Notes under the pieces: model-generated
What the model was told of the DNA's origin: nothing
Databases searched by the model: none
The model's input: the letters and a program-made list of their open reading frames with translations, nothing else
Assembly: GCF_023278045.1 (NCBI RefSeq)
Contig: NZ_CP056783.1
Span: 1,521,501-1,585,500, forward strand
Source of the DNA: Flavobacterium sp. K5-23
GTDB lineage: Bacteria; Bacteroidota; Bacteroidia; Flavobacteriales; Flavobacteriaceae
Direction of reading: 5' to 3'
Length of the DNA: 64,000 bases
Shown here: positions 12,107-47,812 of the stretch, one piece after another
How the letters are laid out: each line of letters begins with the position of its first letter
Position numbering within the stretch: position 1 is the first letter of the stretch
Program-made: the position numbers and the translations under genes

Positions 12107-12203
12107 GGGTTATGGGTTATGGGTTATAGGTTATGAGTTGTGGGTTATTCGTTATCAGTTATGATTTGGAATTGAAAAACTGAGAACCGAAAACTGGGAA
12201 GTG
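12107..12203 (+). repeat. heptamer tandem array left of the four-helix-bundle gene
   Basis: Eight in-register 7-bp units at 12107-12162 (GGGTTAT x3, AGGTTAT, GAGTTGT, GGGTTAT, TCGTTAT, CAGTTAT) are followed by four more at 12176-12203 (AAAACTG, AGAACCG, AAAACTG, GGAAGTG). The second set read on the other strand is CAGTTTT-like, a variant of the same heptamer. Confidence 0.85.
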
Positions 12204-12244
12204 AAATCATGGAAATTAAATAATATGAAATAGCCATGATTCAA

Positions 12245-12260
12245 TCCCGAAGCTTCGGGA
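12245..12260. repeat. 16-bp perfect palindrome
   Basis: TCCCGAAGCTTCGGGA is self-complementary. A degenerate relative (starting ATCCCGATGCTGCGG) occurs near 18066, suggesting a dispersed extragenic element rather than a terminator. Confidence 0.6.
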
Positions 12261-12332
12261 CGCGATCACTAATAAAAATAGTTCCTTATGGGGCATTCCA
12301 TATGACCGATAAAAAACAATAAATATCAACAT

Positions 12333-12707
12333 ATGAAAAGCTATAAAGATTTAGAAATATATAATTTGAGTTTATCCTTATTTTATACAACACATGCTGT
12401 TTCTTTAAAATTGCCCAGGTATGAATTATATGAATTAGGGAGTCAAATAAGAAGATCATCAGATTCAGTAGTTACCAATATTGTTGAGGGATACGGAAGA
12501 AGACGTTATAAATTAGATTTCATCAAGTTTTTAACTTATTCACATGCAAGTAATCTGGAAACGATTTGTCATTTGGAGAAATTAGTAATACTCTACCCTG
12601 CCATAGCAAATGAGATGGTCCTGCTTCAAAACGAATATGATAAATTAGGCGCTAAACTGTTTTCTTTTTTGCGCTATGTAGAAAATAACTGGAATAAATT
12701 TGAGTGA
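12333..12707 (+). CDS. four-helix-bundle protein (S23 / 23S-rRNA intervening-sequence protein family)
   Basis: A 124-aa all-helical protein. It opens with [18 protein letters not shown] and contains [30 protein letters not shown] and the later helix [15 protein letters not shown], which identify the S23/IVP four-helix-bundle family. Relatives were first found inside 23S rRNA intervening sequences, and the DGR accessory protein Avd shares the fold. Its biochemical role here is unknown and no rRNA or reverse transcriptase is near. It interrupts a sugar-nucleotide operon and is bracketed by heptamer arrays on both sides, so it looks like inserted cargo. Confidence 0.88.
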
Positions 12708-12715
12708 CGAGATGT

Positions 12716-12818
12716 TAGTTATGGGTTATGGGTTTTCGGTTATGAGTTATGTGTTTTGGGTTACCGTATGGTAGTGGAAAACAGAGAACAGAGAACAGAG
12801 AACAGAGAACTGAAAAAA
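12716..12818 (+). repeat. heptamer tandem arrays right of the four-helix-bundle gene
   Basis: Seven units at 12716-12764 (TAGTTAT, GGGTTAT, GGGTTTT, CGGTTAT, GAGTTAT, GTGTTTT, GGGTTAC), then six at 12777-12818 (GAAAACA, GAGAACA x3, GAGAACT, GAAAAAA). Both have a strict 7-bp period. The array ends 15 nt before the next start codon. Confidence 0.85.
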
Positions 12819-12833
12819 TAAAATAAAAGTAAA

Positions 12834-14225
12834 ATGAAAATTACAAAAATTTGTTGCATTGGAGCAGGATATGTTGGAGGGCCAACAATGGCAGTTATTG
12901 CTCAAAAATGTCCGCATATACAGGTTACAGTTGTCGATTTGAATGAAGAAAGAATTGCGGCTTGGAATGATGAAAATGTTGAAAATATTCCTATTTATGA
13001 ACCGGGTTTAGATAAAATTGTGGCGGAAGCAAGAGGGAGAAATTTATTTTTTTCCACAAATGTAGATCAGGCGATTGATGAGGCTCAAATAATTTTCATC
13101 TCCGTTAATACCCCAACTAAAACCTATGGTAAAGGGAAAGGTATGGCTGCAGATTTGAAATATATTGAATTGTGTGCCAGACAGATTGCCAGGGTTTCAA
13201 AATCGGATAAGATCGTTGTGGAGAAATCCACATTGCCAGTTAGAACCGCGGAAGCGATTAAAAGTATATTAGATAATACGGGAAATGGGGTTCAGTTTCA
13301 AATCCTTTCCAATCCAGAGTTTCTGGCTGAAGGAACTGCGGTTACTGATTTGTTGAATCCAGATAGAATATTAATTGGAGGAGACTCATCCGAAGAGGGC
13401 CAAAAAGCTATACAAGCACTTGTTGATGTGTATTCCAATTGGGTTGCTAAAGACAAAATATTAACCACAAATGTTTGGTCGTCTGAATTGTCAAAGCTGA
13501 CAGCTAATGCGTTTTTGGCACAACGTATTTCGTCTATTAACGCAATGTCTGAACTTTGTGAGAAAACCGGTGCGGATGTGAATGAAGTGGCGAAAGCCAT
13601 TGGTATGGATAGCCGTATAGGTTCTAAATTCCTGAAGTCATCTGTTGGTTTTGGAGGTTCTTGTTTTCAAAAAGACATTTTAAATTTAGTATATATAGCT
13701 AAATCATACGGTTTAAATGAAGTGGCTGATTATTGGGAACAAGTAATCATTATGAATGATTATCAAAAAAGACGTTTTTCGAATACTATTGTAAAAACCC
13801 TTTATAACACTGTTGCCGATAAGAAAATTGCATTTTTGGGTTGGGCTTTCAAGAAAGACACTAATGACACCAGGGAGTCTGCAGCCATTTATGTGGCGGA
13901 TGATTTAATAAATGAGCAGGCAAACATTGCGGTTTACGATCCAAAAGTGTCCGGGAAAAAAGTATTGGCTGATTTGGATTATTTAGAAACAAGATCTTCT
14001 GAAAAGAATAAAAAAGGAATAGTGTCATTTGAAGATCCATATTTAGCTTGTAAGGACGCACATGCTATTGCTGTGCTTACGGAATGGGATGAGTTTAAAG
14101 GATATGATTGGAAAAGAATATATGAATCCATGCAGAAGCCTGCCTTTATATTTGATGGCAGGAATATATTAAACCGTTCTGAAATGGAATCAATCGGATT
14201 TATTTATCAAGGTATTGGTTCTTGA
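12834..14225 (+). CDS. UDP-glucose 6-dehydrogenase (long, UGDH-like form)
   Basis: NAD-dependent four-electron oxidation of UDP-glucose to UDP-glucuronate. N-terminal Rossmann motif [17 protein letters not shown], the segment [19 protein letters not shown], the [11 protein letters not shown] motif and the catalytic Cys277 in [11 protein letters not shown], then the C-terminal UDP-binding domain ([18 protein letters not shown]). At 463 aa with Cys at 277, it resembles the animal-type UGDH branch that is frequent in Bacteroidota. Its start is preceded by a heptamer array. Supplies an acidic precursor for the polysaccharide. Confidence 0.92.
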
Positions 14226-14247
14226 ATTTAGTGCGATTTAGAATGAT

Positions 14248-14277
14248 ATTGCCTTTGGTTATTACGCTGAAGGCAAT
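14248..14277 (+). terminator. hairpin between the two sugar dehydrogenase genes
   Basis: ATTGCCTT (14248-14255) pairs with AAGGCAAT (14270-14277). A second imperfect hairpin (GTTTAA…TTAAAC) follows at 14282-14307. Neither has a strong T-tail, so the terminator call is tentative. Confidence 0.35.
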
Positions 14278-14429
14278 AATTGTTTAAAAGGAGAAAGCTC
14301 TTAAACAGTAAATCGGGATGTTTTTCTATTCCGTAAAAAGTGAATAATGTATTGGTTAATCCTGTTTTAATGTTTAAATAAGTAGAATGGAAGCTTATCA
14401 AACTGAATGAGGGAAAAAAAATAATATAA

Positions 14430-15713
14430 ATGGGTTCAAATTTAAAAATTGCGGTTATTGGCTTGGGTTATGTAGGTTTGCCTTTGGCTAGGTTATTTGC
14501 AACGAAATATGCAGTAGTGGGATTTGATATTAATCATTCTAGAGTTGCATCATTAAAATCAGGGATAGATTCAACTCTTGAGATTAGTGATGTTGATTTG
14601 CGAAAAGTACTCTTGGAAAAGCCAAGTGATGCTGTTGGATTGTATTGTTCTTCCGTTTTGGAAGATATTTCGGATTGTAATTATTATGTAGTTACCGTTC
14701 CAACTCCGGTTGATAAAAATAATCGTCCCGATTTAACTCCTTTATACAAATCATCAGAAGCCGTAGGTACCGTTTTGAAAAAGGGGGATATTGTTATTTA
14801 TGAATCTACGGTTTATCCAGGTGTTACCGAAGAGGAATGTGTTCCTGTATTGGAAAGGGTTTCCGGCTTACAATTCAATGTTGATTTTTTTGTGGGATAT
14901 TCTCCCGAAAGAATCAATCCCGGAGATAAAGCGCATACTGTAGACAAAATTTTGAAGGTTACATCAGGCTCCACTCCTGAAATTGGACAAAAAGTAAACG
15001 AGTTGTATTTGTCCGTAATTACGGCAGGGACACATCTAGCACCTACAATACGAGTTGCGGAGGCTGCCAAGGTAATTGAGAATTCACAACGGGATATCAA
15101 TATTGCTTTCGTAAATGAATTGGCTAAAATATTCAACTTGATGAATATTGACACTAAGGCTGTTTTGGAAGCCGCTGGAACCAAATGGAATTTCTTGCCT
15201 TTTAAACCGGGACTGGTTGGTGGACATTGTATAGGTGTTGATCCCTACTATTTAGCCCAAAAAGCACAAGAACTGGGGTATCATCCTGAAATTATTTTAG
15301 CAGGAAGGCGATTGAATGATAGTATGGGTGAGTATGTGGCGTCACAAATAGTGAAGTTGATGATTAAGAAGGGGATTTCAGTAAACGGAGCGAGTCTTTT
15401 AATGCTTGGAATTACTTTCAAAGAAAATTGCCCAGATGTTCGAAACACTAAAATTGTAGATGTCATCGCATCTTTAACAGATTACGGAATTACAGTAACT
15501 ATATATGATCCATTAGCTAATTCAGCTGAGGTGGAACACGAATATAATTTAGAAACATCTAATGAAATATCTGGACATAAATTTGACGCGGTTGTTTTAG
15601 GTGTTGCTCATAAACAATTTTTAGATATGGATCTTTCCGTTTTGCAAAATGAAAATAGCATTTTGTATGATGTAAAAGGAGTTCTGGGTGATGCTGTTGA
15701 CGGGAGATTATAG
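14430..15713 (+). CDS. UDP-N-acetylhexosamine 6-dehydrogenase (WbpO/TviB type)
   Basis: Nucleotide-sugar dehydrogenase. Rossmann motif IAVIGLGYVGLPLARLFA at the N-terminus, the TVPTPVDKNNRPDL segment, YSPERINPGDK, and the catalytic Cys267 in GLVGGHCIGVDPYYL, the form typical of enzymes acting on UDP-GlcNAc/UDP-GalNAc rather than UDP-glucose. C-terminal domain: GITFKENCPDVRNTK. At 427 aa it matches WbpO/TviB. With the WbpP/TviC-like epimerase at 11115 it would give UDP-GalNAcA or UDP-GlcNAcA. It is the second nucleotide-sugar dehydrogenase in this operon. Confidence 0.92.
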   Translation: MGSNLKIAVIGLGYVGLPLARLFATKYAVVGFDINHSRVASLKSGIDSTLEISDVDLRKVLLEKPSDAVGLYCSSVLEDISDCNYYVVTVPTPVDKNNRPDLTPLYKSSEAVGTVLKKGDIVIYESTVYPGVTEEECVPVLERVSGLQFNVDFFVGYSPERINPGDKAHTVDKILKVTSGSTPEIGQKVNELYLSVITAGTHLAPTIRVAEAAKVIENSQRDINIAFVNELAKIFNLMNIDTKAVLEAAGTKWNFLPFKPGLVGGHCIGVDPYYLAQKAQELGYHPEIILAGRRLNDSMGEYVASQIVKLMIKKGISVNGASLLMLGITFKENCPDVRNTKIVDVIASLTDYGITVTIYDPLANSAEVEHEYNLETSNEISGHKFDAVVLGVAHKQFLDMDLSVLQNENSILYDVKGVLGDAVDGRL

Positions 15714-15740
15714 TTTTATTATATAGAAAAAAGAATAATT

Positions 15741-16166
15741 ATGAAAATAGGTATAACATTCAGTGCATTTGATTTACTGCATGCCGGACATATAAAAATG
15801 TTGGAAGATGCTAAAAGACAATGTGATTATTTAATTGTTGCCTTACAGACTGACCCTACTATTGACCGCCCGGAAAAGAATAAGCCTACGCAATCAGTTG
15901 TAGAAAGATACATTCAGCTCAAAGGATGTGTGCATGTGGATGAAATTGTTCCTTACGCAACAGAGCAAGATTTAGAGGATATTTTACGTTCTTTTAAAAT
16001 CGATGTACGTATTATAGGGGATGAGTATAAAGACAAAAATTTTACTGGTCGTGATTATTGCGAAGAAAAAGGAATAGCATTCCATTTCAACTCAAGAGAT
16101 CATCGTTTTTCCAGCAGCAGTCTTCGCAAAGAAGTTGTGGAAAAAGAATTGAAAAAAGTTATATAG
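15741..16166 (+). CDS. cytidylyltransferase-family protein (TagD/GCT-like)
   Basis: A 141-aa member of the nucleotidyltransferase superfamily with the HxGH motif in GITFSAFDLLHAGHIKML, the RYIQLKG segment, and SSSLRKE near the C-terminus in place of the classic ISSTxLR. The family includes glycerol-3-phosphate cytidylyltransferase, but members in capsule loci can activate other phosphates. The acceptor is therefore unknown; a phospho-polyol or glycerol-phosphate substituent is plausible. It follows the dehydrogenase gene by 27 nt. Confidence 0.85.
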   Translation: MKIGITFSAFDLLHAGHIKMLEDAKRQCDYLIVALQTDPTIDRPEKNKPTQSVVERYIQLKGCVHVDEIVPYATEQDLEDILRSFKIDVRIIGDEYKDKNFTGRDYCEEKGIAFHFNSRDHRFSSSSLRKEVVEKELKKVI

Positions 16167-16167
16167 C

Positions 16168-16195
16168 AGGTTATGGGTTATCAGATAACAGATAA
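16168..16195 (+). repeat. heptamer array left of a REP-like palindrome
   Basis: Four in-register heptamers (AGGTTAT, GGGTTAT, CAGATAA, CAGATAA) directly after the cytidylyltransferase stop. Confidence 0.7.
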
Positions 16196-16231
16196 CTATC
16201 GAACTAACGAAAACAGAATACATCGATTAAC

Positions 16232-16378
16232 GTCACTTCGAGTTTTTTTGCTTGAACAAATTTATTTTAAAGCAAGAATTGGTTAAGCAAAAAAGTATCG
16301 AGAAGTAACAGATACACAAGGGTTCTCGATACGATTTCAAAATAGCTGTCGCAATTTTTAAAATCTACTCGAACTGAC
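16232..16378. repeat. REP-like nested palindrome, copy 1
   Basis: The outer arms GTCACTTCGAGT (16232-16243) and ACTCGAACTGAC (16367-16378) are complementary except for one base. The inner arms GTATCGAGAA (16295-16304) and TTCTCGATAC (16323-16332) are perfect. The same arm sequences occur in a second element at 47820-48129. Confidence 0.75.
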
Positions 16379-16386
16379 GGAAAGGA

Positions 16387-16413
16387 ATAACAGATAAAGG
16401 ATAACAGATTACA
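16387..16413 (+). repeat. heptamer array abutting the manC start codon
   Basis: ATAACAG, ATAAAGG, ATAACAG and a partial unit run to the base before the ATG at 16414. On the other strand they read CTGTTAT-like. Confidence 0.65.
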
Positions 16414-17421
16414 ATGAACAAAAAACACTCGATCACACACGTAATACTCACTGGAGGAGTTGGCAGCCGTTTGTGGCCGCTTTCGCGAAAAAGTCAACCC
16501 AAACAGTATTTGGATATATTCGACGGGAAATCTTTGTTTGAAATGACGGTGGATCGCAATCGCGATTTAGCGGATAAGATAATAGTGGTTGGTAACATTG
16601 ACAATTGTCATCTGAGTAAACAAGTTTTGGATAAGACAGGTACTTCCTATATAGATATAATTGAATCAACTCCCAGGAACACGGCCGCGGCAATAGCTTT
16701 TGCCGCTTTTGCATCACAACCGGATGATATACTAATTGTAACACCTTCGGATCATATAATTGGGGAAATGAATCATTATAAAGGGGCAATTAATGAAGCG
16801 GTCGAAAAAGCTTTAAATGGTTTTATCGTTACATTCGGAATTGTTCCCACAAAGCCTGAAACGGGATATGGTTACATTGAACGCAAGGGAGATGACGTGA
16901 TTTCTTTCCGTGAAAAACCAAACCAAGTCACAGCTGCTGATTTTATTGCTAAAGGAAATTTTCTTTGGAATAGTGGGATGTTTTGTTTTAAAGCCGGTGT
17001 GTTATTGGATGAATTGAAATTGTATTCTCCTGAGGTATACGAAAAATCCAAATTGGCATGGGAAAAGAACGACAATGGAAACCTGGATTTAAGTCTTTCA
17101 CTTGAAATACCTTCCATAAGTATTGATTATGCGGTAATGGAAAGAAGTAAAAAAATCAAGGTGGTTTCATCTCAATTTTCTTGGTCTGATTTAGGGTCTT
17201 TTGAATCTGTTTATGATTATTTAGTTTCTATAGGACATCCAGTGGACAAAAACAGAAATATGACAATAGGAACAAATAACTATACCGCTTTTATCGGACT
17301 TAAGGATACAATATTTGTTTATACAGCTACCGCTAATTTAATTTTGCAAAAGGAATTTTCACAAGATGTTAAGAGTTTATATGGTAAGCTGGAAAGAGAA
17401 AATTCTGATTTATTGGATTGA
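16414..17421 (+). CDS. manC: mannose-1-phosphate guanylyltransferase, copy 1
   Basis: Makes GDP-mannose from mannose-1-phosphate and GTP. The nucleotidyltransferase signature TGGVGSRLWPLSRKSQPKQYLDIF opens the protein. ESTPRNTAAAIAFAA, VTPSDHII, FREKPN and WNSGMFCFK follow, and SIDYAVMERS and FSWSDLGSF complete the ManC pattern. At 335 aa it has only the guanylyltransferase part, without the fused C-terminal phosphomannose isomerase of bifunctional enzymes. A second ManC is at 40234-41322. The ATG is immediately preceded by a heptamer array, so there is little room for a conventional leader. Confidence 0.92.
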   Translation: MNKKHSITHVILTGGVGSRLWPLSRKSQPKQYLDIFDGKSLFEMTVDRNRDLADKIIVVGNIDNCHLSKQVLDKTGTSYIDIIESTPRNTAAAIAFAAFASQPDDILIVTPSDHIIGEMNHYKGAINEAVEKALNGFIVTFGIVPTKPETGYGYIERKGDDVISFREKPNQVTAADFIAKGNFLWNSGMFCFKAGVLLDELKLYSPEVYEKSKLAWEKNDNGNLDLSLSLEIPSISIDYAVMERSKKIKVVSSQFSWSDLGSFESVYDYLVSIGHPVDKNRNMTIGTNNYTAFIGLKDTIFVYTATANLILQKEFSQDVKSLYGKLERENSDLLD

Positions 17422-17487
17422 TACAAAATGTCATAATTATTTAATAGGAATAATTACTATTTTTTTCTTTTTTTTTAAACTAAAAGC

Positions 17488-17505
17488 ATCACTAAATTAG
17501 GTGAT
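17488..17505 (+). terminator. weak terminator-like hairpin after manC
   Basis: ATCAC pairs with GTGAT across an 8-nt loop, followed by a T-rich run to 17520. Confidence 0.4.
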
Positions 17506-17629
17506 ATTTGTTTTTATTTTAAACAACTGCTATTGTGTTAATTGCCTTAATATTAAATTGTTGCAATTTTCAAGTTCGATATTGGAAGGCTACGGAATTT
17601 CTAAGGGGTAAAGGGCCTTTTTTTTTGGT

Positions 17630-17637
17630 TATATTTG
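17630..17637 (+). promoter_or_regulatory. -7 promoter element far upstream of the UpxY-like gene
   Basis: TATATTTG fits TAnnTTTG and is followed by GCCG, a common context in flavobacterial promoters. It lies 484 bp before the next start codon. Confidence 0.4.
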
Positions 17638-17896
17638 CCGTCGAAAAGTTCTATTGATAGGTTATGAATTTTATGATTTTTTTATGGTTTTAAGTGATTG
17701 TTGTCAGGAGTAAAAGATAAACCATCAAACAGGACTATTCGATAAAAAGGGATTACAATCAATTTTTTGGTCTGTCTTATTTTCTTGGGAAGTGGAATGA
17801 ATTAAAGTTGAGAACACTAGTTTATGAAAATGAACATCTGGTAAATAATTGATTCGACTTATTTACTTAGTAAAAAACTAAAGCTTAAATGTTAAC

Positions 17897-17938
17897 GGAG
17901 TCGAATTCCCCTCTTGAAATCGAAGATTCAACGACTCC
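17897..17938 (+). promoter_or_regulatory. two-part hairpin in the putative antiterminator leader
   Basis: GGAGTCG (17897-17903) pairs with CGACTCC (17932-17938). An inner TTGAA/TTCAA pairing directly abuts the right arm, leaving a C-rich asymmetric bulge on the left. It could be a recognition structure for a NusG paralogue; no function is shown. Confidence 0.4.
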
Positions 17939-18121
17939 AAAAAGAATGTAAACCGGAGTTATAGGGGTTAGGGGTGTGTTTATTGTTTTGATAAAAATCA
18001 TTAATCAAATGGCTAAAGTTTGAAAAATAAAAAGTTTAATGATTTCGAATCGTATTTCCCTCTCAATCCCGATGCTGCGGTAGGGAGTTAGGAGTGGAAT
18101 TAATTAATAATACGGTAAAAG

Positions 18122-18592: not shown

Positions 18593-18937
18593 AGTGTTTT
18601 ATAACATTTTTTAAATTTAAATTTGTAAGAACTGTATTTAATAGTATGTAAGTGTTTTGCTCATAGAGTATTATATATGTTGGGAATTATTCTTTTTAAA
18701 TACGATGGTTTCTTTTTTTTATTAAGGTAAAAAAAAGAGGTATTCCACTTTAAATTTGTCTAAATTTGCAGCCGAATAAAATAGGGGGATCTCAAATATG
18801 GGACTCACCACGGCGAAGCCGTGAAAAAACAAGACTGTTTCAAAGGTTTTTTGTTTAATATTATAGAAGAGAATATTCGAAATATGTATCAGTTTAAGGG
18901 TTTTAAATCTTTGATAGTTTTCGATTTTAATATAAAA
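18593..18937 (+). promoter_or_regulatory. intergenic control region before the large OPX gene
   Basis: Two TAnnTTTG elements (TAAATTTG at 18751-18758 and 18761-18768, the second followed by GCAGCC) lie about 170 bp before the start codon. A strong 6-bp G/C-rich hairpin, CACGGC-GAA-GCCGTG, sits at 18809-18823 and precedes an A-run. The open frame continues upstream of the chosen start, but that extension has no signal peptide and would overlap the hairpin. Confidence 0.55.
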
Positions 18938-21364
18938 ATGAATATGAGAAAAATAATTATTGCCATTGTATTGTTTATGGCTCTTTTTCAATCGGCAACG
19001 GTGTTGGCCCAAGATTTATTGAAAGGAAGTGATTTAAGTACTGTAAAAGTGGATTATTTATCAGATAGTGATATTTCGAAAATAAAAACTCAATTACAAT
19101 CTAATAATATGACAATTGAACAGGCAGAGCCTATTGTTTTGGCTAAAGGAATGTCTGTGACGGAGTTTGCAAAATTAAAAAGCAGATTGCAAAATCAAAC
19201 ATCTTCTTCTACTGTTAAAGAAGGTGATTTTTCGGGAAACAGTAACGAAGAATTTAGTAGAAAACAAGATAAAATTCTAAATGTAAAAGTTAAGGATTCA
19301 TTAAATGCCAAGATTTTTGGTTCGGAACTATTTGATAATCCAACTTTGAATTTTGAGCCTAATTTGAAACTGGCTACTCCAGTTAATTATATTTTAGGTC
19401 CTGGAGATGAATTGCAAGTGAGTGTATTTGGTGTTCAGGAATTTAATGCAAGTGTTCCTGTTACTGTTGAAGGGAAAGTAATTATTCAATATGTCGGCCA
19501 GATTCCTGTTTCAGGTATGACGATTGAAGCAGCCGCACAAAAAATAAAAAATGCAATTGCCGGGGTGTATAGTACCGTAAGATCAGGTCAATCGCAAGTG
19601 GGTGTGAGTTTGAGTCGAATCAGGACCATCAGAGTGACCATTATTGGGAGTAAACAACCTGGGAATTATTCTGTTTCTTCATTGGCTACCGTTTACAATG
19701 CATTGCATTTGGCTGGTGGTCCGGGAAAAAACGGGAGTTATAGAAACATAGAATTAATCAGAAATAATAAAGTATTGACAAAAGTTGATATTTATAATTT
19801 TTTGGTAAACGGTAATCAATCCGATAATATGGGTTTAAAAGACAATGACGTGATTCGAATTCCTGCTTATGTGAATAGAGTTACTCTAGAAGGACAGGTA
19901 AAAAGACCGGGAATTTTCGAATTGAAACCGGGAGAATCTTTTTCAGATTTAATTTCTTTTGCTTCTGGGTTTAATGAGTATGCCTATACCGCTTCGGTAA
20001 ATGTGATACAAAAAACAGCTAAAGAATTTAAGGTTAAGGATATAAAAGCAATAGAATTTAATAGCTATAAACCGCAAACAGGTGATGTGTTTAATGTTTC
20101 TAAAATATTAAACAAGTTTGAAAATCGCATTAAAATCGAAGGGGCTGTTTTTAGACCAGAAACGTATTCCTTTTATGAAGGTATGCGCGTTTCCAATTTA
20201 ATTGCCAAGGCTGACGGTTTAAAGGAAGATGCTTACGGTAAAAGAGCCAGGATAACACGATTAAAGCCTGATTTGACAACGGAAGTGGTAAATGTAAACT
20301 TGGTAAGTGCTATTGCAGGAGATGTTCAATTTGATATTTTATTGCAAAAAGAAGATGTGATGACTGTTTATTCAATTTTGGATTTCGAAGAAGAATATAA
20401 AATCACTATTGACGGTGAAATTAAAAAGCCGGGTGTTTATGACTACTTTCAAAATCTGTCTTTGAATGATTTATTTATTCAAGCGGGTGGATTAACAGGG
20501 TCAGCCTCAAAAAGGGTGGAAGTGGCGCGAATGATAAAATCCGATGAAATAGACAATAGCAATACTGCTAAAGTGCAATTGTTTAACATTGAGATTACGC
20601 CCGGTAACAATGAGCAATTGAAAAATTTTGAACTGGAACCGTTTGATGTGGTTAATGTTCGTAGAATGGCAGTTTATGAAAAACCGGAGATGGTGACCGT
20701 TAGTGGAGCCGTAAATTACTCGGGGAAATATGTGTTGGCCAATAAACAAGAAAAACTATACGATGTCATCCAAAGAGCGGGCGGTCTGACTTCCATTGCC
20801 GATTTGAATGGGGTAAAAATCAAGCGACCAATTCAAGCCAAGCAAATCGAGGATTTAGAAAACGTGAATTTGAATTTGGGTAAAAATGACAGTATTCAAA
20901 ACAAAATCACAAAAAAAATAAAGGAAGAATTAAAATATGCAACCATTCCGGTGGATTGGGAAAAAATTCTTAAAAATCCAAGAAGCGCCGCTAATGTAAC
21001 CTTGTTGGTGGGGGATGAAATAGAAGTGGCTGCCTATAATGAAAGCGTAAAAGTAACCGGAAATGTGTTGTTGACATCTGAGATTCCTTACAATAAAGGC
21101 AAGGGATTCGGTTATTATCTGGATGCTGTTGGTGGCGTAGATGCCAAAGGATGGAAAAGAAGAGCCTATGTCATTTATCCAAATGGCAAAGCGGCAGTGT
21201 CGAAGTCTTTTATGTTTATCAGATCCAGTCCTAAAGTATTGCCGGGTTCGCAAATTGTGGTGCCGGAAAAGCCAGAGGTAAAAAAGATGAGTACGGGTGA
21301 ATTTGTGAGTATAGCGGGGGTATTGGCCAGTTTGGCGGGAGTTATAATAGCGATATTAAGATAG
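18938..21364 (+). CDS. large multi-SLBB polysaccharide export protein (OPX family)
   Basis: An 808-aa exported protein. The start at 18938 gives a clean signal peptide (MNMRKIIIAIVLFMALF… ending VLAQD); an upstream GTG would bury it. A linker follows, then a Poly_export domain (VNYILGPGDELQVSVFG, TVEGKVIIQYVGQIPVSG) and a series of SLBB domains (IGSKQPGNYSVSS; LEGQVKRPGIFELKPG; IEGAVFRPETYSFYEG; IDGEIKKPGVYDYFQN; VSGAVNYSGKYVL; VTGNVLLTSEIPYNKG). It ends in a hydrophobic helix (IAGVLASLAGVIIAIL). This architecture resembles large Bacteroidota OPX proteins rather than compact Wza. It sits between the antiterminator and Wzz, so it is probably the outer-membrane channel of the same pathway. Confidence 0.9.
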   Translation: MNMRKIIIAIVLFMALFQSATVLAQDLLKGSDLSTVKVDYLSDSDISKIKTQLQSNNMTIEQAEPIVLAKGMSVTEFAKLKSRLQNQTSSSTVKEGDFSGNSNEEFSRKQDKILNVKVKDSLNAKIFGSELFDNPTLNFEPNLKLATPVNYILGPGDELQVSVFGVQEFNASVPVTVEGKVIIQYVGQIPVSGMTIEAAAQKIKNAIAGVYSTVRSGQSQVGVSLSRIRTIRVTIIGSKQPGNYSVSSLATVYNALHLAGGPGKNGSYRNIELIRNNKVLTKVDIYNFLVNGNQSDNMGLKDNDVIRIPAYVNRVTLEGQVKRPGIFELKPGESFSDLISFASGFNEYAYTASVNVIQKTAKEFKVKDIKAIEFNSYKPQTGDVFNVSKILNKFENRIKIEGAVFRPETYSFYEGMRVSNLIAKADGLKEDAYGKRARITRLKPDLTTEVVNVNLVSAIAGDVQFDILLQKEDVMTVYSILDFEEEYKITIDGEIKKPGVYDYFQNLSLNDLFIQAGGLTGSASKRVEVARMIKSDEIDNSNTAKVQLFNIEITPGNNEQLKNFELEPFDVVNVRRMAVYEKPEMVTVSGAVNYSGKYVLANKQEKLYDVIQRAGGLTSIADLNGVKIKRPIQAKQIEDLENVNLNLGKNDSIQNKITKKIKEELKYATIPVDWEKILKNPRSAANVTLLVGDEIEVAAYNESVKVTGNVLLTSEIPYNKGKGFGYYLDAVGGVDAKGWKRRAYVIYPNGKAAVSKSFMFIRSSPKVLPGSQIVVPEKPEVKKMSTGEFVSIAGVLASLAGVIIAILR

Positions 21365-21371
21365 TAGTAAT

Positions 21372-21427
21372 CAGTGATCAGTATTCAGTGGTCAGTATTC
21401 AGTGATCAGTATTCAGTGATCAGTATT
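21372..21427 (+). repeat. four 14-bp (paired heptamer) tandem repeats
   Basis: CAGTGATCAGTATT occurs at 21372-21385, 21400-21413 and 21414-21427, with a one-base variant at 21386-21399. Each unit is two heptamers, CAGTGAT and CAGTATT. The rest of the gap to 21660 holds a dispersed-repeat fragment near 21466-21487 (CGACAAGTTCAGGATGAC) and no gene. Confidence 0.88.
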
Positions 21428-21660
21428 CAGTTTGCAGTGATCAGGTATTCAAGGGTCACCCTTCATTCGACAAGTTCAGGATGACTGTAAGGAGTAATAA
21501 GTGAGTGGTGAGAAGTGATTCGTGTTCAGATAGCAGATTTCATTTGTTTTACCCCTACCCTAAAGGGAGACAAATGAAAACAGACAACAAGCTTTTATCG
21601 ACACCGTTTAAAATACATATTTCAATACTAAATAAAATACAAGCGTAAAATCTTGATACA

Positions 21661-25886: not shown

Positions 25887-25892
25887 ACAGCT

Positions 25893-41847: not shown

Positions 41848-41914
41848 TTATTCCTCCCTCTAATAAAAACAATAAACAAACTTGGAAAATGTTTGTATTT
41901 GCCGTTAAATTCAT

Positions 41915-41932
41915 AACGTTTAGAAAAACGTT
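41915..41932. repeat. short hairpin in the gap before the WbpL-like gene
   Basis: AACGTTT (41915-41921) pairs with AAACGTT (41926-41932) across a 4-nt loop. The rest of 41848-42123 shows no gene and no clear TAnnTTTG element. Confidence 0.45.
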
Positions 41933-42123
41933 CAGAAAATGATGTAGTTAGTAATAAAAAAAATGTTACGCAATAGTTAACCCATTACCAGTTAGTGCTA
42001 AAAAAGGTTGTTGAAAACCTTTCAGTCATTTATTAAATAGGGTTTCTATCTCATTTTTAACTAATACCTATATAGTTACTCCATTTGAAAAGTAATTTTA
42101 ATTAATTGATTTTATAACCAAAA

Positions 42124-43080
42124 ATGCAATACGTACTAATCGTTTTTGTTCTGTTCCTGCTGGAACTGCTCTATTTCAAAATAGCCAATCGCTATAATAT
42201 CATTGATAAGCCGAATCACAGGTCGGCACATACGGAAATCACTTTAAGAGGTGGTGGTATTATCTTTTGGTTTGCCGCCCTTATTTATTTCACGCAAAAT
42301 TATTCGGAAAACCTGTTGTTTTTTGCCGGAATCACTTTAGTGAGTGTGGTGAGTTTTTGGGATGACATACTGAGTTTGCCTAATAAGATTCGGTTGTTGG
42401 CTCACTTTACGGCTATTTCATTAGTGTTCTATCATTTGGGTTTGTTTGCTGTTTTGCCAATATGGGGTGTTATTTTAGGATATGTTTTTTTTATAGGAAT
42501 CATCAATGCCTATAATTTTATGGATGGGATTAATGGAATTACGGGTGTTTATACGCTTGTTGTTTTAGGGTCATTATTATACGTTAATCAGTATATCCAA
42601 GAATTTACGACTTTCAATCTTATTGTTTATCCAATGTTAGCGGCAGTTGTTTTTCTTTTTTTTAATTTTCGAAAAAAAGCCAAATGTTTTGCCGGAGATA
42701 TTGGTAGTATTGCCATTGCTTTTTGGGTAGTGTATTTGCTTTTGGAATTGGTGTTAAAAACGAATTCGATGCTTTGGATTTTGTTTTTGGCCGTTTATGG
42801 AGTGGATGCCATTATAACAATCAGTCATCGATTGTATTTAAGACAAAATATATTTGAAGCGCATCGTTTGCATTTTTACCAAATACTAAGTAATGAGTAT
42901 AAAATACAGCATAGGGTAGTGGCGTTGGGTTACGGTATTGCACAAGTGATTGCCTCGGGATTGGTGGTTTTTCTAGTGGATAAAGTACCTGATTTGGTTA
43001 TTTTTGCTATTGTATTAGTACCTCTTATTGGTATTTACTCTTTAAAGTTTTATTTAATAAAAGGACATGGCGAAAGATAA
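42124..43080 (+). CDS. WecA/WbpL-like polyprenyl-phosphate sugar-1-phosphate transferase
   Basis: A 318-aa membrane protein with about ten TM helices of the MraY/WecA superfamily, which loads the first sugar phosphate onto undecaprenyl phosphate. IIDKPNHRSAHTEITLRGGGIIFW near the N-terminus, FWDDILSLPNKIRLLAHF, NAYNFMDGINGITGVY (Mg/substrate loop) and AKCFAGDIGSIAIAFWVVYL are diagnostic. The presence of WbpM- and WbpV-like enzymes suggests UDP-FucNAc or UDP-QuiNAc as donor. It overlaps the next gene by 14 nt. It is the only initiating transferase visible in the window. Confidence 0.88.
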   Translation: MQYVLIVFVLFLLELLYFKIANRYNIIDKPNHRSAHTEITLRGGGIIFWFAALIYFTQNYSENLLFFAGITLVSVVSFWDDILSLPNKIRLLAHFTAISLVFYHLGLFAVLPIWGVILGYVFFIGIINAYNFMDGINGITGVYTLVVLGSLLYVNQYIQEFTTFNLIVYPMLAAVVFLFFNFRKKAKCFAGDIGSIAIAFWVVYLLLELVLKTNSMLWILFLAVYGVDAIITISHRLYLRQNIFEAHRLHFYQILSNEYKIQHRVVALGYGIAQVIASGLVVFLVDKVPDLVIFAIVLVPLIGIYSLKFYLIKGHGER

Positions 43081-43552
43081 CAACTATCCTAAGTTGATAA
43101 AAGGCGGTATTCATACCGACGATAGAGGACAAATTTCTTTTGTAAATGATATGAAATTTGATGCCATTACACGGTTTTATATTATCAATAACTCAGCAGA
43201 AAATCCTTTGAGAGCTTGGCAAGGTCATAAGATTGACAATAAATATTTTTATTGCATACAGGGAACCATAAAAGTGCATTATGTTAAAGTTGATAATTGG
43301 GAATATCCTTCGAGGGATTTAAAAGTGGAGAGTGTAGTGCTCAAAGCAAATGAGAGCTCCATTTTACATATACCGGAAGGCTTTGCCAATGCCATACAAT
43401 CGTTGGAATTGGGGTCAAAACTAATTTCATTTTCGACTTTACCACTTGACCGAACTTCAGAAGACGACGTGCGATTTGATAGTAATACTTGGGAAATCGA
43501 TGAAATAGCCCTGTTTGCCAATAATACAAACAGAAAGGAAGAATTTCGTTAA
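43067..43552 (+). CDS. RmlC/WxcM-like cupin, putative sugar epimerase/isomerase
   Basis: A 161-aa cupin. GGIHTDDRGQISFVNDM, RAWQGHKIDNKYFYCIQGTIKVHYV and HIPEGFANAIQSLELGSKLISFS resemble the dTDP-4-dehydrorhamnose 3,5-epimerase and WxcM/FdtA-type ketoisomerase folds. The substrate is unknown. It is coupled to the initiating transferase upstream and lies 45 nt before a sugar aminotransferase, so it may act on a keto-sugar that is then aminated. Confidence 0.7.
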   Translation: MAKDNNYPKLIKGGIHTDDRGQISFVNDMKFDAITRFYIINNSAENPLRAWQGHKIDNKYFYCIQGTIKVHYVKVDNWEYPSRDLKVESVVLKANESSILHIPEGFANAIQSLELGSKLISFSTLPLDRTSEDDVRFDSNTWEIDEIALFANNTNRKEEFR

Positions 43553-43597
43553 ACCGGCGTATTCTACACTCCTTTAAAGAGTAAATAGTGTCTACTT

Positions 43598-44749
43598 ATG
43601 AATGATAAAAGAATTTTTCTGTCATTGGCCCATGAATCAGGTTCAGAAATGAAATATATTCAGGAAGCTTTTTCAAGTAATTGGATTACATCAGGAGGTC
43701 CTTTTGTGGATGCTTTTGAAAATGACCTGGAGAATTATTTTTCAAATGAGGTTTTTGTGGGAGCTCTTAGTTCCGGAACTGCCGCGATACATTTAGGATT
43801 GATATTATTGGGGGTACAAGCAGGTGACGAGGTGATTTGTCAGAGTATGACTTTTTCAGCTTCCGCTAATCCTATTCTTTATTTAGGGGCTACACCTGTT
43901 TTTATTGATAGTGAGCATGAAACTTGGAATTTATGCCCCGCAGCTTTAGAAACTGCCATTATTGACAGAATCGCAAAGGGTAAAAAACCAAAAGCTATAA
44001 TAGCCGTTCATTTATATGGAGTGCCTTATCAAGTGGAAGCGATAAAAGCCCTTTCAGAGAAATATGGAATTCCGGTTTTGGAAGATAGCGCAGAGGCTTT
44101 GGGAAGTAGTTACAAAGGTAAAAAGTGTGGGACTTTCGGGGATATAGGGGTTTTGTCCTTTAACGGGAACAAGATCATCACTACTTCAGGTGGGGGCGCA
44201 ATTGTTACTAAAACAAAACTGCTTAAAGATAAGGCCGTATTTTATGCCACTCAATCCAGGGACGATGCCCCACATTATCAGCATAGTGAGATTGGGTATA
44301 ATTATCGAATGAGTAATATTTGTGCTGGAATCGGCAGAGGACAAATGGAAGTTTTAGACGATCATGTTGCGTTGCGAAGAAAAATGAATGCTTTCTATGT
44401 TGATTTATTCAAAGACATTCCAAACGTTACCGTTTTTACCGTTCCTAACGATGATTATTATGCTAACTATTGGTTGAGTGCCATTGTGATAGAACCCAAT
44501 CAAGACAAAGGAATTGATAGTGAAACTTTACGTTTGGCTTTTGAGGCCGCGAATATTGAATCCCGTCCTTTGTGGAAACCGATGCATTTGCAACCTATTT
44601 TTGAGAAATATCCCTATTATGGGAAAAGAGTAGCCGAAACCTTGTTTGAAAAAGGTTTGTGCTTTCCTTCAGGGTCAAATCTTACAGACTCCGATAGAGA
44701 TAGAATTGCTACAGCGGTGCATGAGTTTTTCAAGATTGCATTAATATAA
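43598..44749 (+). CDS. DegT/DnrJ/EryC1 sugar aminotransferase (PglE/WbpE-like)
   Basis: A 383-aa PLP enzyme. NWITSGGPFVDAFENDL at the N-terminus, ALSSGTAAIHLGLILLG (PLP phosphate loop), LEDSAEALGSSYKGKKCGTFGDIGVLSFNGNKIITTSGGG with the Schiff-base Lys192, and IGYNYRMSNICAGIGRGQME. It would aminate a UDP- or dTDP-keto sugar, plausibly the WbpM product. Distinct from the nonulosonate-module aminotransferase at 28081. Confidence 0.9.
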   Translation: MNDKRIFLSLAHESGSEMKYIQEAFSSNWITSGGPFVDAFENDLENYFSNEVFVGALSSGTAAIHLGLILLGVQAGDEVICQSMTFSASANPILYLGATPVFIDSEHETWNLCPAALETAIIDRIAKGKKPKAIIAVHLYGVPYQVEAIKALSEKYGIPVLEDSAEALGSSYKGKKCGTFGDIGVLSFNGNKIITTSGGGAIVTKTKLLKDKAVFYATQSRDDAPHYQHSEIGYNYRMSNICAGIGRGQMEVLDDHVALRRKMNAFYVDLFKDIPNVTVFTVPNDDYYANYWLSAIVIEPNQDKGIDSETLRLAFEAANIESRPLWKPMHLQPIFEKYPYYGKRVAETLFEKGLCFPSGSNLTDSDRDRIATAVHEFFKIALI

Positions 44750-44786
44750 TTTTATAAATGTGGGCTAACCACGATTTTTAAGTAAG

Positions 44787-45335
44787 ATGAATATAGAATT
44801 TACAGATATAAAGGATTTAGTAATAATAACACCTACCGTTTTTGAAGACGAGCGTGGGTATTTTATGGAGTCCTATAATAAAACAAAACTAGGTGACTTG
44901 GGAATCAACATTGATTTCGTACAAGACAACCAGTCTTTTTCTAAAAAAGGAACATTGAGAGGATTGCATTATCAAAATCCACCTTTTGCACAAACGAAAC
45001 TGGTTCGTGTATTAGAGGGGGAGATTATAGATGTGGCTGTCGATTTAAGAAAAGAATCCCCTACATACGGGCAGTCATTTGCGGTGCTATTGACTTCTAA
45101 AAACAAAAAACAATTATTAGTTCCTCAAGGTTTTGCTCATGGATTTTCGGTTATAAGTGAAACTGCTGTGGTTATGTATAAATGTGATCAATTTTACGAC
45201 AAAGCCAGTGAAGGTGGAATTCGTTTTGATGATTCAAAGTTAAACATTGATTGGGGAATGGATTTAAAGGAGGCGATTGTCTCTGAAAAAGATTTGGTTT
45301 TGCCTGATTTCGCTAATTGTAACAGTCAGTTTTAA
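44787..45335 (+). CDS. rfbC: dTDP-4-dehydrorhamnose 3,5-epimerase
   Basis: A 182-aa cupin of the RmlC family. VIITPTVFEDERGYFMESYNK, FVQDNQSFSKKGTLRGLHYQ (catalytic His), GEIIDVAVDLRKESPTYGQ and VPQGFAHGFSVISETAVVMYKC. Third step of dTDP-L-rhamnose synthesis. The remaining rml genes (D, B, A) follow but are separated from it and from each other by inserted genes and repeats. Confidence 0.95.
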   Translation: MNIEFTDIKDLVIITPTVFEDERGYFMESYNKTKLGDLGINIDFVQDNQSFSKKGTLRGLHYQNPPFAQTKLVRVLEGEIIDVAVDLRKESPTYGQSFAVLLTSKNKKQLLVPQGFAHGFSVISETAVVMYKCDQFYDKASEGGIRFDDSKLNIDWGMDLKEAIVSEKDLVLPDFANCNSQF

Positions 45336-45345
45336 AGAAAGTGAT

Positions 45346-45380
45346 CAGTTATCGGTTGTGAGTTTTAGGTTATCGGTTAG
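45346..45380 (+). repeat. heptamer array left of the ATPase gene
   Basis: Five in-register heptamers: CAGTTAT, CGGTTGT, GAGTTTT, AGGTTAT, CGGTTAG, starting 11 nt after the rfbC stop. Confidence 0.8.
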
Positions 45381-45406
45381 ATTTTGTATACTTGAATATA
45401 CAAAAT
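45381..45406. repeat. 10-bp inverted repeat upstream of the ATPase gene
   Basis: ATTTTGTATA (45381-45390) and TATACAAAAT (45397-45406) are perfect complements. ATTTTGTATA recurs at 45414-45423 and with one change at 45469-45478. These could be operator sites. Confidence 0.55.
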
Positions 45407-45476
45407 AATGCTTATTTTGTATAGCTCAACACGTGATTTTTGTTAGGTGTAACGAACAATAATTTGTTATTTTGTA

Positions 45477-45506
45477 TTGCGCATCGAACAAAAAAAAGTA
45501 TTTTTG
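45477..45506 (+). promoter_or_regulatory. Bacteroidota-type promoter of the AAA/DUF4143 gene
   Basis: TTG (45477-45479), exactly 19 bp, then TATTTTTG (45499-45506): a full match to the Bacteroidota promoter pattern, 18 bp before the ATG at 45525. It shows that the cargo gene brings its own promoter. Confidence 0.6.
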
Positions 45507-45524
45507 TATTGTAAACAAAACAAT

Positions 45525-46721
45525 ATGGAAGAGTTAGTTGAAAAATTTCGTTTTAAATTAAGTCTTACTTCAACGGATTTCGTTAGGAGTTTGGGTAGTG
45601 ATATTAATTGGAACGCAAGGTTAATAGGAATTAAAGGGGCAAGAGGTGTTGGGAAAACAACAATGCTCTTGCAGCATATTAAAATGAATCTGACGGAGGT
45701 GTTAGATAAGACATTGTATGTGTCTTTGGATTCCATTTGGTTTAGCAATAACACACTGGTCGATTTAGCGGATGATTTTGTAAAAAAAGGAGGTGAGTAT
45801 CTTTTCTTGGATGAGGTACATAGATACGACAACTGGTCGCAGGAGTTGAAAAATATCTATGATGATTACCCGATGCTAAAAGTCGTGTTTACAGGGTCTT
45901 CTTTGTTGCAAATATTGAATGCCAGAGCTGATTTGAGTCGCAGGGCTATTACTTATACTATGCAAGGGCTTTCGTTTCGTGAATACCTTTGTATTGAAAC
46001 GGGACAACATTTTGATCAATTGACTTTAGCGTCTATTTTGAGTAATCACTCAAAAGAATCGACTTTGATTAATGCCAAGGTAAAACCATTGCAATATTTT
46101 GATAGGTATCTCAAGCAGGGGTACTACCCTTTTTATAAAGAAGAATTAGATTTGTACGTGCCTCGTTTGGAGGAAGTTATTAATATGATGCTTGACATTG
46201 AGTTGCCTTTGTTGCGAGGTTTGGATTTGGCTTATGTTCATAAAATAAAGCAATTGTTGCTTATTATTTCCGAATCGGTACCTTTTATCCCTAATGTGAG
46301 TAAATTGAGTACAAAAATTGGAATTGCCAGGAGTACTTTGCTTTTGTATTTTCATTATTTGGATGAAATTGGTCTTACTATCAACTTGTTTAAAGAGTCG
46401 GGTGGTATTAGTAAACTACAGAAACCGCTTAAAGTGTATTTGGAAAACTCAAATTTGATGTATGCTTTAACTTCGAGTGCTGCTAATACTGGAAATATAA
46501 GAGAAACCTTTTTCGCAAATCAGCTTGGGTATGCCCATAAAATTATGTATTCTGACAAGGGTGATTTTTTGATCAATGAGAAGTACGTTTTTGAAATAGG
46601 CGGAAAGGATAAATCGATGAAACAAATTGAAGGTGTTGAAAACGCCTTCATAGCAGCAGACGGTATTGAGTATGGTTTTCAGAACAAAATACCATTATGG
46701 TTGTTTGGATTTTTGTATTAA
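45525..46721 (+). CDS. AAA_14/DUF4143 ATP-binding protein
   Basis: A 398-aa P-loop ATPase. Walker A GARGVGKTTMLL (about residues 38-49), Walker B EYLFLDEVHRYDNW, a sensor-like VVFTGSSLLQIL and LSFREYLCIETG complete the AAA_14 domain. A winged-helix-like linker and a C-terminal DUF4143 domain follow, with a PD-(D/E)xK-like motif (GDFLINEKYVFEIGGK). The family is widespread and scattered in Bacteroidota; its function is unknown. The start at 45525 is preferred because the promoter overlaps the upstream TTG at 45477. It splits rfbC from rfbD and is bracketed by heptamer arrays. Confidence 0.88.
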   Translation: MEELVEKFRFKLSLTSTDFVRSLGSDINWNARLIGIKGARGVGKTTMLLQHIKMNLTEVLDKTLYVSLDSIWFSNNTLVDLADDFVKKGGEYLFLDEVHRYDNWSQELKNIYDDYPMLKVVFTGSSLLQILNARADLSRRAITYTMQGLSFREYLCIETGQHFDQLTLASILSNHSKESTLINAKVKPLQYFDRYLKQGYYPFYKEELDLYVPRLEEVINMMLDIELPLLRGLDLAYVHKIKQLLLIISESVPFIPNVSKLSTKIGIARSTLLLYFHYLDEIGLTINLFKESGGISKLQKPLKVYLENSNLMYALTSSAANTGNIRETFFANQLGYAHKIMYSDKGDFLINEKYVFEIGGKDKSMKQIEGVENAFIAADGIEYGFQNKIPLWLFGFLY

Positions 46722-46728
46722 TTGGGGG

Positions 46729-46784
46729 GGTGAATAGTGAGTGGTGAATAGTGAGTGGTGAATAGTGAGTGGTGAATAGTGAGT
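46729..46784 (+). repeat. four perfect 14-bp tandem repeats right of the ATPase gene
   Basis: GGTGAATAGTGAGT is repeated exactly at 46729-46742, 46743-46756, 46757-46770 and 46771-46784; each unit is two related heptamers. The rest of the gap to 46946 has low-complexity AG-rich text and no gene. Confidence 0.92.
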
Positions 46785-46946
46785 GGTGGGAAGTGTTCCG
46801 TTTTTTTGGAGAGAATAAAGAATAGAGGCAAGAGCCAATAGGCAGAAGCCAATAGTTATGGTTATGAGTCCAGATGGTTAAGGAGACGATAGTCATTGGA
46901 ATCGGATATGGGTTGGGTGTAGGGAATTGAAAAGATTAAAAATTAA

Positions 46947-47801
46947 ATGAAAAAAATATTAGTAACGGGTGCTCAAGGGCAGTTGGGATCAGAGTTGCAG
47001 GTTTTGGCGGTACATTATCCGCAGTATGAATGGGTTTTTGCTGACAGGGCGCAAGTTTCATTGGATAATTTGGAGGTCTTGTCAAGTCAATTGGATGTGA
47101 TAAGCCCAAATGTCATATTGAATTGTGGAGCCTATACCGCAGTTGACAAAGCAGAGACGGAGCAGGATTTAGCGGATACGGTCAATCATTTGGCAGTGGC
47201 TATTATTGCTCAATATGCAAATAAGAATAAGGTGAAACTAATTCATATTTCAACGGATTATGTTTTTGACGGGAGTTCGGCTGTCCCTTTAAATGAAGAG
47301 GCGCCAACAAATCCAATCAATATATACGGAGCCACTAAAAGAGCAGGAGAATTAGCTTGTTTGGTTGAAAACCCCAATGCTATTATCATAAGGACTTCAT
47401 GGGTTTATAGTGAATTTGGGAACAATTTTGTGAAAACGATGCAACGTTTGATGCAAGAACGGGACAGTATTAGTGTTGTCAATGACCAGATAGGTTCGCC
47501 TACATACGCTGCCGATTTAGCAAAGGCTATGCTTGCGATTGTAAATGCTCCAAAATGGATTCCTGGAATTTATAATTATTCCAATGAAGGGGAAATTAGC
47601 TGGTATGATTTTGCTCTGGCTATAAAAGAGATCGGTGGGTACTCTTGCGAGGTAAATGGTATTCCTTCAGCGGCGTATCCTACACCTGCAAAGCGACCTG
47701 TTTATTCTTTATTGGATAAAAATAAAATAAAAAATACATATGGCGTTAGTGTTCCAGATTATAAGGAGAGTTTGGAAAAATGTTTAAAGTTTAAAGTTTA
47801 A
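46947..47801 (+). CDS. rfbD: dTDP-4-dehydrorhamnose reductase
   Basis: A 284-aa SDR, final step of dTDP-L-rhamnose synthesis. ILVTGAQGQLGSELQVLA, NCGAYTAVDKAETEQDLADTVN, STDYVFDGSSAVPLNEEAPTNPINIYGATKRAGEL (Tyr-x3-Lys) and RTSWVYSEFGNNFVKTM. The last codons (ending KCLKFKV) are encoded by a heptamer tandem array, so the C-terminus may vary in length. Confidence 0.94.
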   Translation: MKKILVTGAQGQLGSELQVLAVHYPQYEWVFADRAQVSLDNLEVLSSQLDVISPNVILNCGAYTAVDKAETEQDLADTVNHLAVAIIAQYANKNKVKLIHISTDYVFDGSSAVPLNEEAPTNPINIYGATKRAGELACLVENPNAIIIRTSWVYSEFGNNFVKTMQRLMQERDSISVVNDQIGSPTYAADLAKAMLAIVNAPKWIPGIYNYSNEGEISWYDFALAIKEIGGYSCEVNGIPSAAYPTPAKRPVYSLLDKNKIKNTYGVSVPDYKESLEKCLKFKV

Positions 47802-47812
47802 AGTTTAAAGTT
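47781..47812 (+). repeat. heptamer array overlapping the rfbD stop codon
   Basis: TGTTTAA, then AGTTTAA three times, then AGTT. The stop codon (47799-47801) is inside the array, so unit changes would alter the C-terminus of RfbD. Confidence 0.85.

Follow-up and report, generated by a model that had tools for sequence, protein, structure and literature searches.

The 64-kb window analysed here, the whole stretch taken from the 3.49-Mb single-contig genome of Flavobacterium sp. K5-23, carries genes for an epimerase, a UDP-sugar dehydrogenase, an SLBB export protein and dTDP-rhamnose-type enzymes, as well as genes for a 23S rRNA-intervening sequence protein (IVP) and an AAA_14 ATPase. The spacers between these genes hold tandem arrays of 7-nucleotide (nt) units (Table). 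Arrays of this kind are anchored to gene ends with the G-richer strand leading outward, and we consider, at a probability of roughly 45%, that they are heptanucleotide arrays grown by slippage and sorted by purifying selection at gene edges. A sequence-only reading of the window had listed 8 arrays of strict 7-bp or doubled period across its polysaccharide locus. Five of these (at 12107, 12716, 21372, 46729, and 47781) were strong both in our own array scan and in Tandem Repeats Finder (TRF), with which the window arrays were also checked, whereas the other 3 are short or degenerate: 16387-16413 was called by TRF only, 16168-16195 is a small palindrome of two 2-copy runs, and the degenerate units at 45346-45380, for which a strict period is too strong a description, gave no call by TRF at score 30 and none by our scan at score 13. 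Furthermore, 12107-12203 and 12716-12818, each listed as 1 array, are 2 runs apiece (12103-12167 and 12177-12203; 12718-12763 and about 12777-12813). A TTATGG-type repeat at 10955-11004, within the coding end of the open reading frame (ORF) at 8625-11084, is a coding repeat of another sort.

Table. Heptamer arrays of the window and the 2 genes that they flank; positions are counted from the first letter of the window.
Feature	Position	Strand	Remarks
TTAAACCTGAAACT (2x7) run	4670..4703	-	just 5' of ORF start 4713; absent from the sequence-only list
GGGTTAT-type array	12103..12167	+	starts 4 bp past stop of epimerase ORF (11115-12098); G-richer strand leads away from that gene
Degenerate AAACTGA/GAACCGA run	12177..12203	-	AC-type arm of the same spacer as the 12103..12167 array; by eye, under scan threshold
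IVP gene (PF05635, four-helix bundle)	12333..12707	+	E 3.8e-20; flanked by two array-holding spacers; one of 9 PF05635 matches in the K5-23 genome
GTTATGG-type array	12718..12763	+	starts 10 bp past IVP stop
GAACAGA-type array	12777..12813 (approx.)	-	before UDP-sugar dehydrogenase start 12834; AC-type by core dinucleotide, but polarity exception by G/C count
Short palindromic pair AGGTTATGGGTTATC / AGATAACAGATAAC	16168..16200	.	directly after stop 16166; two copies per arm (AGGTTAT GGGTTAT / CAGATAA CAGATAA); TRF score 30
ATAACAG-type units	16387..16413	-	abut start 16414; TRF 16381-16409, 14/15-base repeat, score 51; missed by own scan
CAGTGAT/CAGTATT array (2x7 period)	21366..21438	+	starts 1 bp past stop of SLBB export protein ORF (18821-21364)
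Degenerate CAGTTAT/CGGTTGT (RGTTNNN) units	45339..45380	+	after stop (45335) of dTDP-4-dehydrorhamnose 3,5-epimerase ORF; by eye only
AAA_14 ATPase ORF	45477..46721	+	PF13173 E 1.3e-30; between dTDP-rhamnose-type genes at 44787 and 46947
GGTGAATAGTGAGT (2x7) array	46729..46795	+	7-8 bp past AAA_14 stop
AGGCAAAAGCCAAT run	46826..46855	-	between AAA_14 and RmlD-like ORFs; absent from the sequence-only list
AGTTTAA array	47781..47812	+	overlaps stop codon (47799-47801) of RmlD-like ORF

Runs of matches were scored at each lag in a 1.18-Mb sample of the K5-23 genome, made up of 59 spaced 20-kb stretches, with score 14 as the threshold for comparing periods. Period 7 gave 31 segments, against 1, 2, 5, and 5 for periods 5, 6, 8, and 9, and a third-order Markov copy of the sample, which served as the shuffled control, contained no period-7 segment at this score. 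Thus, the comparison of period 7 with periods 5 to 9, which had been suggested as a check, revealed a clear excess. The window, with 6 period-7 segments, has approximately 3.6 times the density of the sample. In the sampled congeners the density ranges from 4 to 46 per Mb, an approximately 10-fold spread (1 to 11 segments per 240 kb). The searched stretches also contain 47 distinct period-8 arrays of the same style (e.g., L020:8047, L054:9748, L140:9479, and L150:1847). Only 4 of 46 arrays (40 from the sample and 6 from the window) fall inside ORFs of at least 100 amino acids, which span 79% of the DNA.

The position of the arrays at gene junctions, as claimed from the window, is borne out by their distances to gene ends, which were taken from our own ORF calls (at least 80 amino acids, or at least 50 for plasmids; starts are less sure than stops). 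Approximately 69 of the 83 arrays nearest a stop have their near edge within 15 bp of the stop codon, and where a spacer offers 150 bp or more outside the array, 24 of 40 arrays are no farther than 20 bp from a gene end (6.0 expected). Orientation is similarly constrained. In 84 of 93 sampled arrays, the G-richer strand leads away from the gene end closest to the array. This count leaves out arrays at the edge of a stretch (17), inside an ORF (13), at a distance above 60 bp from any gene (10), lacking skew (5) or equidistant (3), and takes repeated sequences once. Among further arrays at Bacteroidota loci fetched by pattern, with no tally of dropped ones, 28 of 32 are outward, giving 112/125 combined, although arrays at orthologous junctions are not independent in these counts; the K5-23 genome alone gives 29/34. 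The polarity holds at stops in co-directional (50/55) and convergent (24/28) spacers and at starts in co-directional spacers (38/40). Divergent spacers are array-poor, with 3 of 106 skewed arrays, whereas 244 of 1,980 spacers are divergent. Local base composition was rejected as the cause, since array-free 45-bp gene edges have more G than C outward in 876 of 1,511 cases (58%) rather than 90%. Replication strand found no support either, with 17 leading against 23 lagging arrays and hence no clear preference, the origin and terminus being placed by the skew of the sampled stretches only. The rule extends to words poor in G-tracts: GGG is absent from the G-richer strand of 72 of the 93 scored arrays, and polarity is kept in 64 of these 72 and in 25 of 29 without any GG.

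The words themselves are less uniform. RGT occurs in the majority unit, read on the G-richer strand, in 71 of 133 distinct arrays from K5-23 and its congeners, against 49.0 ± 4.7 for shuffled unit letters (maximum 62 in 500 shuffles). The suggested alignment for a shared consensus therefore reveals a grammar in about half of the arrays, above shuffled expectation, but the statement that nearly all units fit NRGTNNN is too strong genus-wide, with families such as GAACAGA, AGAAAAT, and AAATCTA common and lacking RGT. GTTATCA, a rotation of TAACTGA, lies outside the 60 commonest words of Flavobacterium arrays; perfect arrays of it were found in one congener (G202) and in other Bacteroidota (G147, G206, and G278). 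The pattern GTTNTSN x4 matched 38/198 Bacteroidota and 44/81 Flavobacterium genomes, and its backward control 31 and 24 of the same sets, so frequently that the pattern marks heptamer arrays in general and not that word. The pattern GTRNTCA x4 was cleaner (22/81 Flavobacterium genomes, backward control 1/81). TAG stops are enriched beside arrays (22/52 versus 297/1,601). Seeding by stop codons was nevertheless rejected as the cause of polarity, given that TAG enrichment alone predicts no direction.

Changing words at a fixed site are seen in the rRNA operons. The 38 distinct tRNA-Ile/tRNA-Ala spacers of the genus have a mean best score of 13.5 at period 7, versus 3.6 to 4.3 at periods 5, 6, 8, and 9, and 29 of them score above 10 at period 7 (in the spacer set, L290 has no called tRNA-Ala, and L294 and L306 were excluded for N). 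Of the 38, 34 have more C than G in the 45 nt that precede tRNA-Ala, 2 have more G and 2 have equal numbers; although the spacers share descent, their words differ and include, among the matches listed, AATTCAT, AACTGTT, AATCTGA, ACTGAAA, and others. K5-23 has 8 full-length matches to the rRNA spacer region and 1 partial. Before tRNA-Ala, among the matches listed, 6 copies carry ACTGAAA, 1 carries AATTCGT and 1 ATAACTC, whereas between tRNA-Ala and the 23S gene 6 carry block A and 2 carry block B, in which AGANNNN heptads form an inverted pair, G-left and C-right (5 copies were aligned). The spacers of single genomes (L034, L041, L052, L064, and L317-L334) are thus mosaic, in K5-23 with 3 types of word on the 5' side of tRNA-Ala and 2 blocks on its 3' side, which is most simply read as recombinational exchange of blocks. 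Spacers of this mosaic type, with blocks exchanged between rRNA operons, are known; the blocks beside tRNA-Ala are likewise mosaic between copies, but here they are heptamer arrays of conserved polarity. Genomes G044, G050, and G022 also have more than one rRNA spacer type, and in 4 operon copies of G022 (L329, L332, L333, and L334), tRNA-Ala is followed by 1 to 3 tandem tRNA-like segments ending in TTCGACTCCCTTATTCTCCA. In another Bacteroidota genome (L352), a C-richer array 5' of tRNA-Arg obeys the rule there, though it was counted as an exception.

A similar turnover is seen at a protein-coding junction. From at least 575 confirmed stretches with relatives of the UDP-sugar dehydrogenase, the best 80 were kept, the best named matches being in Flavobacterium. 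The epimerase gene lies upstream in 68 of the 80 loci, with a gap of at most 40 bp in 46 of the 68. Besides the window, the gap holds arrays in 10 of the 68 loci and no array in 58, and the arrays belong to several unit families, with words such as GTGAGAA (L070), AGTTAGG with CATAACC (L094), AATTAGTG (L134), and GTTATCT with AAAACCG (L084). Differing families at one junction indicate that arrays arose, or were replaced, more than once there.

Cyanobacterial short tandemly repeated repetitive (STRR) sequences are dispersed tandem 7-base units, with several families per genome. The Flavobacterium arrays, being dispersed heptanucleotide tandem repeats of several families per genome, fall within this definition. 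To our knowledge, no orientation rule has been given for STRR. The likeness to STRR, proposed by the sequence-only reading, could be extended to layout: on seven 50-kb cyanobacterial plasmid stretches, chosen because the plasmids carry an IVP relative, 11 of 13 arrays, with other and often G+C-rich words, are outward. On a Nostoc plasmid (L271:22802-23298), GGGGGCAGGGAGC-type units stand before a four-helix-bundle gene and their reverse complement just after it. A heptanucleotide STRR case in Calothrix is mentioned in PMC4692102.

Two published heptamer systems are particularly close; their data were taken from print, from the accessible portions of the reports, and not re-analysed. Rehm et al. 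(2015; PMC4692102) describe intergenic GGGAATC and GGGGA(C/T)T heptamers in Xanthomonas and Nostoc, located on the coding strand when next to a stop and on the non-coding strand when next to a start, in either case at a distance of at most 50 bp, and scarce between divergent ORFs, with convergent inverted pairs being many in Xanthomonas and few in Nostoc. The GGGAATC class folded into quadruplexes in vitro; in those portions, no leading or lagging preference is reported for the Xanthomonas repeats, and no regulatory role was found. The Flavobacterium arrays match this class in their 7-nt intergenic tandem unit, outward G-richer strand (112/125) and rarity between divergent ORFs. However, whereas the class as described has one G-tract word type per genome, Flavobacterium words are many, A+T-rich and mostly GGG-free, differ between species and between operon copies, and also occur in rRNA spacers; with GGG absent from 72/93 arrays, most would lack the G-tracts that characterize that class as quadruplex-forming. 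MacGregor (2015; PMC4679880) reported mostly intergenic TAACTGA direct repeats in Beggiatoaceae, cyanobacteria and five Bacteroidetes, with 147 of 170 sets in one genome pointing to a start codon, and proposed translational regulation. In that report, TAACTGA occurs mixed with other heptamers, one reverse set in a Bacteroidete lies directly past a stop, and close relatives can be without repeats at the same junction. Start-side arrays of Flavobacterium and other Bacteroidota orient toward the start like TAACTGA in co-directional spacers (38/40), though not in divergent ones (0/2). In its accessible portions, that work searched one word and gives no general rule for stops and starts, whereas many words and such a rule are considered here. 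The placement rule itself is therefore already in print; what is new, as far as our searches show, is that it also covers many words lacking G-tracts, one junction compared among congeners, and rRNA spacers whose words change, together with the argument for a single cause behind all of them. Among the full-text matches listed, none dealt with the polarity of heptamer arrays in Flavobacterium, subscription journals being mostly outside that coverage.

Collectively, the period-7 excess and the common outward polarity make a common process behind the arrays likely, as the sequence-only reading had suggested. We tentatively favour, at the probability given above, the view that heptanucleotide tandem arrays arise repeatedly in the spacers between genes and would grow and shrink mainly by whole 7-base units, through replication slippage or unequal recombination. 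Three loci that are 84% to 89% identical (L103, L111, and L115) have arrays of different lengths after seemingly the same 2 genes, and indels in TAACTGA repeats between 2 Cyanothece strains are mostly 7-nt steps (PMC4679880, as far as accessible); both speak for slippage or unequal exchange. At gene edges, purifying selection would then remove harmful placements, the least harmful sites presumably being right after a stop with the G-richer strand coding and right before a start or tRNA 5' end with the C-richer strand coding. Array-bearing spacers may subsequently serve as ordinary homology for recombination; rRNA operons could exchange blocks in this way, and a spacer could become duplicated on both sides of a gene that has newly arrived, for instance that of the IVP. 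The polarity is best seen as a gene-edge filter, although no single known selective cause fits all classes.

Several observations weigh against this view. The polarity kept at convergent stops and before tRNA-Ala (34/38) implies that selection on translation or on Rho loading is insufficient; as general causes, translation fails for tRNA and stop sides and Rho loading inside operons fails for convergent genes. The 2 scored arrays nearest divergent starts violate the polarity. A Nostoc plasmid array (L271:23269), excluded from the 11/13 because an ORF call covered it, is C-richer 8 bp past the IVP stop, the opposite sense, and in a Microcystis sample, TAACTGA sets show no preference in how they face starts (6 forward, 8 reverse; PMC4679880, accessible portions). 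Similar polarity at period 8 (21/29) and period 16 (18/21) means that 7 is not unique. Plain slippage predicts neither the wholesale differences in unit family at one rRNA spacer site nor the unequal column variation, significant at 5% in 20 of the 82 arrays that could be tested; with GTT setting the phase, deviating units in arrays of the GTT type reach 0.27, 0.23, and 0.39 at positions 4, 6, and 7, against 0.03 to 0.05 at positions 2, 3, and 5.

An alternative that we regard as possible though rather improbable is a process at the level of DNA, in which exposed 3' ends between genes would be extended by stuttering 7-base synthesis, G/T-rich and C-poor, and then rejoined, yielding (RGTNNNN)n rightward and (NNNNACY)n leftward, the shape of a head-to-head telomere fusion. 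Such a process would account for a polarity shared by stops, starts and tRNA 5' ends, in convergent as well as co-directional spacers, with no clear dependence on replication direction, and separate extension of ends would give the 2 arms of one spacer different unit families, as in L094, L080, and L035. However, the arms share one family in several spacers (L111, L242, and L259), which may suit a palindromic origin better (the mean rank of the actual partner among swapped partners is 0.29, for 9 spacers), arrays lie at the gene end even in long spacers, so that breaks would be needed exactly there, and the responsible enzyme is still only hypothetical. In its most general form, a cross-phylum process that writes 7-base words outward from the ends of protein and tRNA genes, the G/T-rich strand leading away from the gene, with period and direction fixed and the words disposable, is similarly doubtful.

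Comparably unlikely, in our judgement, is that the arrays are functional RNA or DNA elements, such as irregular hairpin spacers, processing or termination elements or protein-binding heptads, whose position is kept while the words drift. The tRNA-Ile/tRNA-Ala spacer, which keeps period 7 genus-wide while its words change, would fit this explanation, as would the paired G-left, C-right arms, which can form hairpins. On the other hand, 58 of 68 orthologous epimerase-dehydrogenase junctions are array-free, and the density of arrays differs approximately 10-fold among congeners.

The proposal that the arrays are sites of integration or site-specific recombination, or products of the IVP protein or another mobile cargo gene, appears highly improbable. 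It drew on the repeats that flank the IVP and AAA_14 genes in the window, and the IVP gene also lies in the epimerase-dehydrogenase gap of L080 and L084, with 85 to 101 identical residues of 122 to 124 among the 3 loci. In L084 (F. xanthum), the spacers flanking it share 142 of 307 9-mers, against at most 15% for other spacer pairs, and are copies of one spacer, which was probably duplicated along with the IVP gene; this one case suggests ordinary recombination between spacers. However, 8 junction loci (L070, L073, L074, L093, L094, L131, L134, and L144) have arrays with no gene between, which argues against an integration signal. Conversely, cargo often has no array within 200 bp (at score 13): arrays were found near 4 of the 9 IVP genes in K5-23, 3 of the 30 best-scoring IVP loci of the genus, 4 of 24 AAA_14 genes and none of 6 weak AAA_14 matches, which we tentatively take to be RuvB-like. 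Nor could the IVP protein be the array maker, since its gene is present in 119 of 121 genomes with so few arrays nearby, and G072, a genome without an IVP match, still has 2 arrays in 240 kb. The repeats on both sides of the AAA_14 gene share one direction, unlike terminal inverted repeats, and no recombinase was found among the 10 window ORFs scanned (of 72 listed). Instead of the cargo-bound terminal inverted repeats and linked recombinase of a mobile element, we thus find arrays without cargo and cargo without arrays. Least probable of all, selection for G-quadruplexes, by which G-rich heptamers would be kept because 4 units fold together, shares the placement and polarity reported for GGGAATC repeats (PMC4692102, accessible portions) but is contradicted as a general cause by the GGG-free and GG-free units that obey the rule.

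As far as the accessible portions of the 2 reports go, the GGGAATC repeats, with their quadruplex folding, and the TAACTGA repeats, with their possible role as a translation signal, look like instances of a single rule. In Flavobacterium, most units have no G-tracts and some lie in untranslated rRNA spacers, so that both proposed functions are insufficient as general explanations, and one cause should be sought for all heptamer words. With a 10-fold spread in array density among congeners and differing words in the operon copies of single genomes, Flavobacterium makes the question of why 7-nt repeats are so common in bacteria a testable one.

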